64,000 bases of DNA from Owenia fusiformis (Eukaryota > Annelida > Polychaeta > Sabellida > Oweniidae). Shown one piece after another: positions 12,341 through 15,300 of the stretch (within the stretch, counting starts at the first letter, position 1; every line of letters starts with the position of its first letter). Location of the stretch: positions 21,999,564-22,063,563 of the forward strand of contig CAIIXF020000007.1 in the NCBI GenBank assembly GCA_903813345.2. The letters are read 5' to 3'. The notes under the pieces are model-generated. The model worked only from the letters and a program-made list of their open reading frames with translations, had not been told where the DNA came from and ran no database searches. A program made the position numbers and the translations under genes.

Positions 12341-15300
12341 TCAAATTTTTTCTAACACCTCAAATTTGTAACTGATATCTTTGTCCTTGTTTTTGTCTGT
12401 CTGTATGTTCTCTGGTACATCGGGATGTCTGAAAAGTAAAAATCTGGAAATCATTTCACATGGATAAGGCCTACAGCTAGGTATTGATTTAATTCTCTGG
12501 TCACCCTCAATCCCACCCTCATGACCCAGCTTACATCTTTCACATATTTTCCAGATAGGAGAAAGAAATGGGGGAGGGGGCAACACAGAAGCTTAAAGCA
12601 AGGCTACCCATGCTCTACACTTTGTTAATTCTAATGAAGTGGGGGACTTTACATCGAGTCTTTACTGTTGGCACATCACCCTATGAGAATAATAATATCC
12701 TAACTGACATTTTTGTGAAACTTAGAAATCAGGCTTTGAAAGATTAGACATCTGTAACTTCATAAGTATTCAACTGGCATGTGTGTGATTGTCTCACTGT
12801 TTTTGTCTTCATTATTGTGGAAGTTTTTGAGCAAATTAAAAATGGAGATTGATACATGTACTTATCAAGAAGAAATTTATACCACTCACGTAACTTGCTG
12901 GAACTTTTCAGTATCAAACTCAGGTAGGAATGTGTCACATTCAAAGTCATGTAAAATCATTGTATGGTAGATCCTATGGCAGTGTGGTGATTCAAGGGCT
13001 AGCTGGAAAAAGAGGAACATCAAAAGTCATATTAAATCATTGTATGGTAGATCCTATGGCAGTGTGGTGATTCAAGGGCTAGCTGGAAAAAGAGGAACAT
13101 TCAAAGTCATGTAAACACATTGTATGGTAGATCCTATGGCAGTGTGGTGATTCAAGGGCTAGCTGGAAAGAGAGGAACATTCAAAGTCATGTTAAATCAT
13201 TGTATGGTAGATCCTATGGCAGTGTGGTGATTCAAGGGCTAGCTGGAAAGAGAGGAACATTCAAAGTCATGTAAAACCATTGTATGGTAGATCCTATGGC
13301 AGTGTGGTGATTCAAGGGCTAGCTGGAAAGAGAGGAACATTCAAAGTCATGTAAAATCATTGAGTGGTAGATCCTATGGCAGTGTGGTGATTCAAGGGCT
13401 AGCTGGAAAGAGAGGAACATTCAAAGTCATGTTAAATCATTGTATGGTAGATCCTATGGCAGTGTGGTGATTCAAGGGCTAGCTGGAAAGAGAGGAACAT
13501 TCAAAGTCATGTTACAGGGTTCGAAATTAGCGTTGCGGAAGTAACGATTCGTTCCTTCATTTTCTCAAATCGTTACCTAGCAACATGCCCAAGTAACGAA
13601 AACAGTTTCCTGGTTTATGGGAAGATCTCTATACGATCGTCAACTCAACTTCTCAATTGAAAAAATGCTGAGAATGAAAATATGCTGCCGTGATAAAACA
13701 TTTTTTCTTTGGCACTTTTCGTCCTCTTTCACTTCAGCTTTTAGGCTATAACTTCTCAAAACATAAGATAAACTGTTTACTTACCATACAGTTTCTTATT
13801 TTTCTAAAATAAAGTCTTAAAAATCGGCAATTTTCAGGTAAAATCACCGTATTATTAAGATACTTTTTGAAGATTGCTAACTTCCTGTTGATTAGTGAGT
13901 GAGGGAGACATCTATTGAGAAAAATACTAGTAATTGCTTTCAATAAGCATACCCCCTTCAATAAAGTTTGCAGTTCCCATTTCACAAAGTAGATTTGAAA
14001 TTAAAAAAATAAAATCTTGGGGAGGGAAACTCTCCAACGCAACAGCTGCATAAATTAAGCAGGTTGACCTTTCACTTTGAGCCACTTAGGAATGTTTATT
14101 ATAGTGGGAAATTTAAATTTGAATGTTGAAACAACATGATTGGTCTATTATAATTTGGTCTGATCACATGACTACCAATGTTTATGTTCTCATAAGACAA
14201 CATCTTTTCTCTGAATTGATTGACTTGAAACATTCTTCTAAGGTCTTTTAAAGCTAATTCTATTTACTTTTGAGTCAGAAAAATACTATTTTTTGAGGTA
14301 AATATATCTATCATTCTGGAAAGAAGGATAGTCCTGTATGATCCAGTTCTTTTTATATCTTATTTTAATGTCATATTAAAGGGAGAGGGTTTATTTTGTA
14401 AACTATAATAAACTTGAGATCAACAGATCGATAGATTTGTTTTTAGTGTCAAGGAAAACTGTGTCTATCGATATTTTTTCAACCGGTAAAAAAAACTACC
14501 TTACTTTGGAATTTAGTTACCTAGAAAAAATGTCAGGTAACTATTTTCACTACCAGTCTAAAAAGTTAAGTTCGAACCCTGTGTTAAATCATTTTTCTGG
14601 CCCCTTAGCTTCTTCCTCTTTGTTCTCATCAAATCTCTTCTGTGGGTATTGTTTTTCATCATTGACCTCAGTGTCATAGACTTTCAATGACCACATCAGT
14701 TTTCATTATATATTTATCTTTTCCGTGACATCAAACATCAAATTTGCGAGAAAATATGTAATAATGGAAACAAAGTATTAAAACAATAAATACTGTCACC
14801 CACGTTTATTTCTTTTCAGTTTGAAAAGGATGTGCTTTTTACCAATTTTTGTTCAAATTGGAAGCAAAGAAATTGCCCCGGGTACCCCCGACTCCAGTTG
14901 CCATAGTAACTATAATATTAACCAATCAGATGGAAGAAGTTATATATTTATACGTTTTAATTTCGAAATGTACAAGGTATATTCTGACCAAATTTCAGGA
15001 TGTTTGTACCAATATTCACAAAATGCCAGATACTTTTACCTTATTTATTGATCACCCTGTATGTCAGTGAATATTTAGAGGTTATGTCACTATGACGTGA
15101 AATATGCCTGAGTTCTCCCAATATAGGCCGACCTTGGGAGGCTCTATATTTGGGCAAGAACGAAGGCATATTTCAGGTCATAGTGACATAACTGATGTAT
15201 TACATGCCTTTGTTCCCATGGTTACTTGTATCAATGACGTGACGTCATGATATTATCATGGTTATTAAAGAAATCTAATATCAAAACGAGGTAAGCGGGC

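Follow-up and report, generated by a model that had tools for sequence, protein, structure and literature searches.

Which of several nearly identical 3′ splice sites does a gene use when they stand one behind another at the border of a single coding exon, and what would become of transcripts spliced at the others? This question is raised by the DHFR gene of the annelid Owenia fusiformis, found in a stretch of 64 kb that was analyzed as a whole and is called the window here. The minus strand of the window carries a complete DHFR gene of six exons, with a coding sequence of 567 nt for 188 amino acids. In the gene model, the coding part of exon 1 (25517-25432, located via an N-terminal motif) is followed by exon 2 (16755-16706), exon 3 (15976-15871), exon 4 (15556-15433), whose end before the exon 5 junction reads ..TTTACTCA, exon 5 (13002-12890, 113 nt), and the coding part of exon 6 with the stop codon (12428-12341). 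GT-AG borders are present at all five introns, the reading frame is open throughout, and the part encoded by exons 2-6 (159 amino acids) matched the Pfam domain DHFR_1 (E = 5e-30) and chicken DHFR 1dr1 (E = 2.6e-46). Exon 5 is flanked by intron 4 of 2430 nt and intron 5 of 461 nt; its acceptor is TTTTTCCAG/CTA and its donor TTAC/gtgagt (the slash marking the splice junction), and the alignment to chicken DHFR runs without a gap across the exon. Judged by its complete frame, canonical splice sites and DHFR domain, the gene is otherwise intact, and because the whole reading frame and every splice site are intact, the possibility of a pseudogene was dropped.

At the intron 4/exon 5 boundary, Tandem Repeats Finder (TRF) reported an array at 12937-13512 with a period of 80, 7.2 copies, 95% matches, 0% indels and a score of 1061, a match score far above chance. 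On the gene strand, each unit consists of the 14-nt acceptor TCCTCTnTTTCCAG, varying as TCCTCT[T/C]TTTCCAG, and then of the 66 nt with which DHFR exon 5 opens (CTAGCCCTTGAATCACC...). Seven CAG/CTA acceptors are thus spaced exactly 80 bp apart, with exon starts at 13002, 13082, 13162, 13242, 13322, 13402 and 13482. The real exon 5 start, 13002, sits in the unit nearest to the donor (unit 1, 12937-13016), so that the first 66 nt of the real exon (13002-12937) belong to the array. According to the unit alignment, the six other full units, all on the minus strand, carry putative decoy acceptors: unit 2 (13017-13096), with in-frame TAA and TGA and with a tail that forms the branch region of the real acceptor, unit 3 (13097-13176), unit 4 (13177-13256), with an in-frame TAA, unit 5 (13257-13336), unit 6 (13337-13416), and unit 7 (13417-13496), which has the same sequence as unit 4 and hence the same in-frame TAA. 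The initial annotation had described a seven-fold array of the exon 5 acceptor, built from the acceptor plus 66 coding nt at 80-bp spacing, and TRF, the unit alignment and the gene model bear this out; its assignment to DHFR and to exon 5 also holds, with the correction that the gene lies on the minus strand. The extent it gave, 12937-13514, is slightly short, since a partial eighth unit resumes at about 14582-14593 beyond a transposon.

The units differ little from one another: 9 of the 80 columns are variable among the seven full units, the mean pairwise difference is 3.3 of 80, and units 4 and 7 are identical. This low divergence indicates that the array is young or homogenized. Bases at exon 5 offsets 39-40, 46-47, 50 and 52 discriminate the units, except unit 4 from unit 7. 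Adjacent double substitutions are found among the nine variable columns in units 2, 3 and 6, and might reflect error-prone synthesis during repeat expansion. Minisatellites are head-to-tail copies of a unit of 10-100 bp, and the present array, with 7.2 head-to-tail copies of 80 bp and 95% matches, is of this kind. A search of the 498-Mb genome with the array as DNA query, in which simple repeats and very common words are skipped, matched this one locus only, and a dispersed repeat inserted in DHFR was dropped as an explanation on the basis of the same search. A run of 45 columns free of variants was considered as a sign of selection, and the P value was 0.006, 0.045 or 0.09, varying with the counting of linked changes; for this reason, no claim of selection on the run is made.

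The partial eighth unit is divided into an exon-side piece (13497-13514, minus strand), which includes the target-site duplication TAACA (13514-13510), and an intron-side piece (14593-14582, minus strand), AATGATTTAACA, whose TAACA is the second target duplication. Between them lies a terminal-inverted-repeat DNA transposon of 1,067 bp (13515-14581), defined by its genome copies, its ends (CAGGGTTCGAA.../...TTCGAACCCTG) and the 5-bp duplication TAACA on both flanks. Because the element and its 5-bp duplication lie inside the eighth unit, the array is older than the insertion. When 1,060 of the 1,067 bases were searched against the genome, 40 of 166 candidates were scored, so that the counts are lower bounds: there are at least 59 matches, at least 10 of them covering nearly the whole query, and of these at least 8, including the copy in the window, show 97-100% identity. 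At least seven other near-full-length copies are 97-98% identical to the one in the window. Both exact ends were present in seven of the eight copies whose flanks were examined (window copy included), the eighth, L018, being without an exact end, and the flanking repeats of these seven, read by eye, were of 5 bp in six copies and of 7 bp in one (L014). The transposon was probably active fairly recently, as judged from the similarity of its copies.

Other repeats and mobile elements were observed in the window. TRF found a 36-bp minisatellite at 40532-40963 (12 copies, 98% matches), whose unit contains a donor-like CAAGGTAAAT within an inverted CAAGGT...ACCTTG and which is overlapped by reading frames of 111-191 amino acids on both strands, one 22-bp unit (ATTTATTGCAATGGGACCTGTC) in two arrays about 7 kb apart (31315-31426 and 38484-38815), and a 32-bp minisatellite at 61262-61753 (about 15 copies, 94% matches). 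A 21-bp GC-rich repeat (GGCCCCCAGAAGCTATAC...) at 4696-6108, just past retroelement-like frames, forms tandem copies that switch from one orientation to the opposite one. Non-LTR retroelement pieces lie at 608-3764, with an endonuclease-like frame at 608-1246 (27.0 bits, just below the Pfam cut-off of 27.4) and a reverse transcriptase, RVT_1, at 1947-3764 (E = 3.2e-27). A frame of a leucine-rich-repeat protein gene was found at 45322-45684 on the minus strand (LRR_6, E = 2.9e-11).

Comparison of the seven copies points to the one at 13002 as the exon. This copy has no private change, and, compared with it, none of the six decoys is free of missense or nonsense changes: TAA in units 2, 4 and 7, with TGA also in unit 2, and missense changes in unit 3 (I>C), unit 5 (I>V) and unit 6 (T>S). 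This pattern would fit purifying selection acting on one copy only, an agreement of the changes and not a test of selection. The splice signals themselves are shared. The CAG/CTA acceptor is kept in all seven full units, and all six decoys retain the AG. A branch-like motif, defined as yUnAy, is located at -30 for acceptors 1-6, contributed by the coding end of the next unit upstream, and acceptor 7, which adjoins the transposon, has its sole such motif at -45, within the transposon. The pyrimidine fraction from -20 to -4 is 0.76-0.82 at the seven array acceptors, compared with 0.65-0.76 at the four other DHFR acceptors. Among the seven, only the real acceptor also has TTGAT at -18 and the 0.82 tract, both owing to the GA>TG double change in unit 2. 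When changes of the same kind were placed at random, a simple null, such a motif arose in 14% of trials, and the motif with a pyrimidine gain in 8%. Selection for the extra branch-like motif was therefore rejected as a finding, since P is about 0.14 for the motif, short of statistical significance, and 0.08 when the gain in pyrimidines is included; the two features together are only a hint of it.

The consequence of each choice was determined by translating exons 2-6 for each acceptor. Depending on the acceptor, exon 5 would be 113, 193, 273, 353, 433, 513 or 593 nt long; the full protein is obtained from the real acceptor alone, and all six upstream acceptors lead to a premature stop. For exon starts 13082, 13242 and 13482, the frame is ended by TAA at exon offset 49, and for 13162, 13322 and 13402, by TAG at offset 82, because, in the frame continued from the preceding unit, the junction with the next one spells AGC TAG. 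The initial annotation was correct in that the next acceptor upstream (exon start 13082) brings in an in-frame TAA, and a TAA of this kind ends the frame for half of the six upstream choices. It had also expected the frame to be kept on addition of three or six units, but this does not restore the protein: translation from exon starts 13242 and 13482 ends at the TAA at offset 49, and would in any case run into AGC TAG at offset 82. As all six upstream choices contain stops, the frame arithmetic is irrelevant to the protein output. As a rule, splicing is unproductive if it places a premature stop upstream of the last exon junction by more than about 50 nt. The stops of all six upstream choices precede the exon 5-6 junction by 142-542 nt, which places every one of them within this range.

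From these results, we consider it probable that the locus is a minisatellite of decoy acceptors spanning a splice site, across the intron 4/exon 5 boundary, with productive splicing at 13002. We infer that an initial tandem duplication copied 14 nt from the end of intron 4 together with 66 nt from the start of exon 5, that repeated duplication or unequal exchange would have extended the array to its seven full units and the partial eighth, and that the transposon would later have split the eighth. Each unit would then provide its own acceptor: in six of the seven cases, a branch-like motif would come from the coding end of the upstream neighbor, and the pyrimidine tract and AG from the unit itself. 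The functional exon would be the copy at 13002, as pairing across the exon with the donor at 12889 should favor the nearest acceptor, and the six upstream acceptors would be left as decoys; leakage to these would give mRNA with a premature stop, an expected target of NMD. Since the reading frame is intact, productive splicing is presumably frequent enough, unless a paralog, described below, suffices. As all six decoys keep their AG, they may do no harm, be of very recent origin, or be in use.

The prediction that the real acceptor wins rests on both flanking introns being longer than 250 nt and on an exon-centric proximity rule. In the excerpted text of Carranza and colleagues, who cite earlier work, the switch from intron to exon definition occurs at flanking introns of about 200-250 nt, and exon definition prefers the two sites that are nearest to each other across the exon, whereas intron definition prefers those nearest across the intron (PMC9225289); the minigene test in this excerpt concerns donors, not acceptors. 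The classical rule of intron proximity, ascribed to Reed and Maniatis in the same excerpt of PMC9225289, would, if applied here, favor the unit nearest to exon 4, against the decoy model. The two rules differ in a simple manner, because exon definition predicts an exon 5 of 113 nt and intron definition one of 593 nt.

Several other readings were weighed against decoys that are largely bypassed. The initial annotation had proposed that the seven acceptors compete and that copy number could tune DHFR output. On this view, the decoys could be spliced at a substantial and perhaps regulated rate, and the length of the array would determine what fraction of DHFR transcripts NMD removes. The seven near-identical acceptors, whose pyrimidine content equals or exceeds that of the four others in the gene, and the premature stop from every upstream choice speak for this, as does the report, in the part of the source consulted, that the splice-donor VNTR of human ABCA7 is longer where expression is lower and that skipping of the next exon grows with its length (PMC5954066). 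However, retention of the neighboring unit in ABCA7, which is the nearest match to decoy use, is unchanged with array length in the same part of that source (PMC5954066), the long flanking introns favor the exon-proximal acceptor, and a divergent DHFR-like paralog, located at a distance of about 645 kb, could in principle buffer a loss, so that DHFR output need not be finely set. We regard such regulated splicing as unlikely, and that copy number tunes DHFR is speculation. An extended form of the idea, to which we give little credence, describes the array as a brake coded by its length, in which each unit is a poison acceptor, leakage sets how much of the DHFR mRNA is productive, and TTGAT at -18 with the richer tract has strengthened the real acceptor so that it outcompetes the decoys; the coding start of exon 5 would also evolve as part of a satellite, and neighboring units that contain TAA might overwrite it.

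At the other end, the array could be an inert young minisatellite kept by drift, with no measurable effect on splicing. The low divergence of its units (3.3 of 80) and the several further minisatellites in the window, which may mean that the genome is prone to them, are in line with this, but complete-looking acceptor signals lie directly beside a coding exon and complete neutrality would need near-perfect discrimination by the spliceosome; we regard an inert array as unlikely. False expansion of the repeat in the assembly is hardly credible. The array is known from one assembly, and the genome search with it found no second haplotype; on the other side, the units carry position-specific variants (units 4 and 7 being nevertheless identical), the array measures less than 600 bp within a contig of 39.8 Mb (C7), the window contains no Ns, and the transposon with its target duplication inside the eighth unit, having inserted into an existing array, counts against an artefact. 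The array structure is real, precise and unusual.

The array was compared with known arrangements of competing splice sites. NAGNAG tandem acceptors are two acceptors 3 nt apart, and the spacing of 80 nt rules out this class. Poison exons, in which an alternative choice inserts stop codons and unproductive splicing is coupled to NMD, have the insertion of stops in common with the array, but they are separate cassettes, whereas here a coding exon is extended by repeat units. Lang and Spritz in 1983, and Reed and Maniatis, reportedly studied test genes of the 1980s with duplicated or competing splice sites; these share with the DHFR array several competing copies of a splice site in cis, whereas the array is natural, seven-fold, and located in a native gene with long introns. 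A close likeness is the VNTR in intron 18 of human ABCA7. According to the excerpted text of its description, this VNTR, with a 25-bp unit, has the exon 18 splice donor at its start, and a transcript that retains one unit is put out of frame and meets a premature stop. Longer VNTRs go with lower expression and with more skipping of exon 19, unit retention being unchanged (PMC5954066). As in that excerpt, the real splice site of the DHFR array lies in an end unit and the other units copy it, CAG/CTA being present in all seven full units. Unlike in ABCA7 as excerpted, the acceptor side is amplified, the unit includes 66 nt of coding sequence and the gene encodes a core metabolic enzyme; length variation and use were measured there, and the DHFR array is known from the sequence of one assembly alone. 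Within what the excerpt covers, the array is most likely the acceptor-side counterpart, or mirror image, of the ABCA7 splice-donor VNTR. No acceptor-side array and no DHFR precedent was found in the titles and abstract beginnings of the open-licence papers listed by the searches, and one may exist in print.

Tandem dual-specific splice sites of AGGT/AGGY type, acting as donor and acceptor, are described for polyubiquitin UBC and VCX3A in the part of the source used (PMC10809524), and intron gain by tandem duplication in Drosophila begins from proto-splice sites, as stated in an excerpt (PMC2891723). In these systems, as excerpted, the units carry splice signals and the line between exon and intron is blurred, as in the DHFR array, but they need an AGGT-type dual site, which the DHFR units do not have: AGGT is absent from all GT contexts in the seven full units. 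Since no full unit has AGGT (0 of 7), a unit-length intron cannot form by the dual-site route, and unit-length introns via such sites were ruled out. A weak candidate donor, ATG/GTTTTA, was observed in unit 5 and would give an in-frame micro-exon of 45 nt, the use of which is very unlikely.

A protein search of the genome (E up to 10) gave 12 matches, 11 of which are at the DHFR locus of the window. The twelfth is weak (E 0.27; C7:22658124-22658207) and lies about 645 kb from it, and the genome search with Pfam DHFR_1 matched the gene in the window only. In a 9.5-kb stretch around the weak match (L012, C7:22653501-22663000), tblastn detected pieces of divergent DHFR-like exons 5, 4, 1 and 3, with E values of 2e-6, 5e-4, 8e-4 and 0.016, calculated for this stretch alone, the search covering exons 1, 3, 4 and 5. 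The exon 5 boundary of this paralog, read by eye, looks like a single acceptor; TRF found in the stretch two short repeats of about two copies, neither at exon 5, and the 80-bp unit had only a 10-base chance match there (E 0.52).

The DHFR array is a natural seven-fold counterpart, in an essential gene, of the experiments with competing splice sites that address exon versus intron definition. Near-identical acceptors at a fixed spacing could directly show which proximity rule the spliceosome follows, and by the unit-specific bases most of the acceptors are separable by ordinary RNA-seq. For the gene itself, coding sequence has been caught in a minisatellite, in which the three other full copies with an in-frame TAA are a possible built-in source of null alleles.
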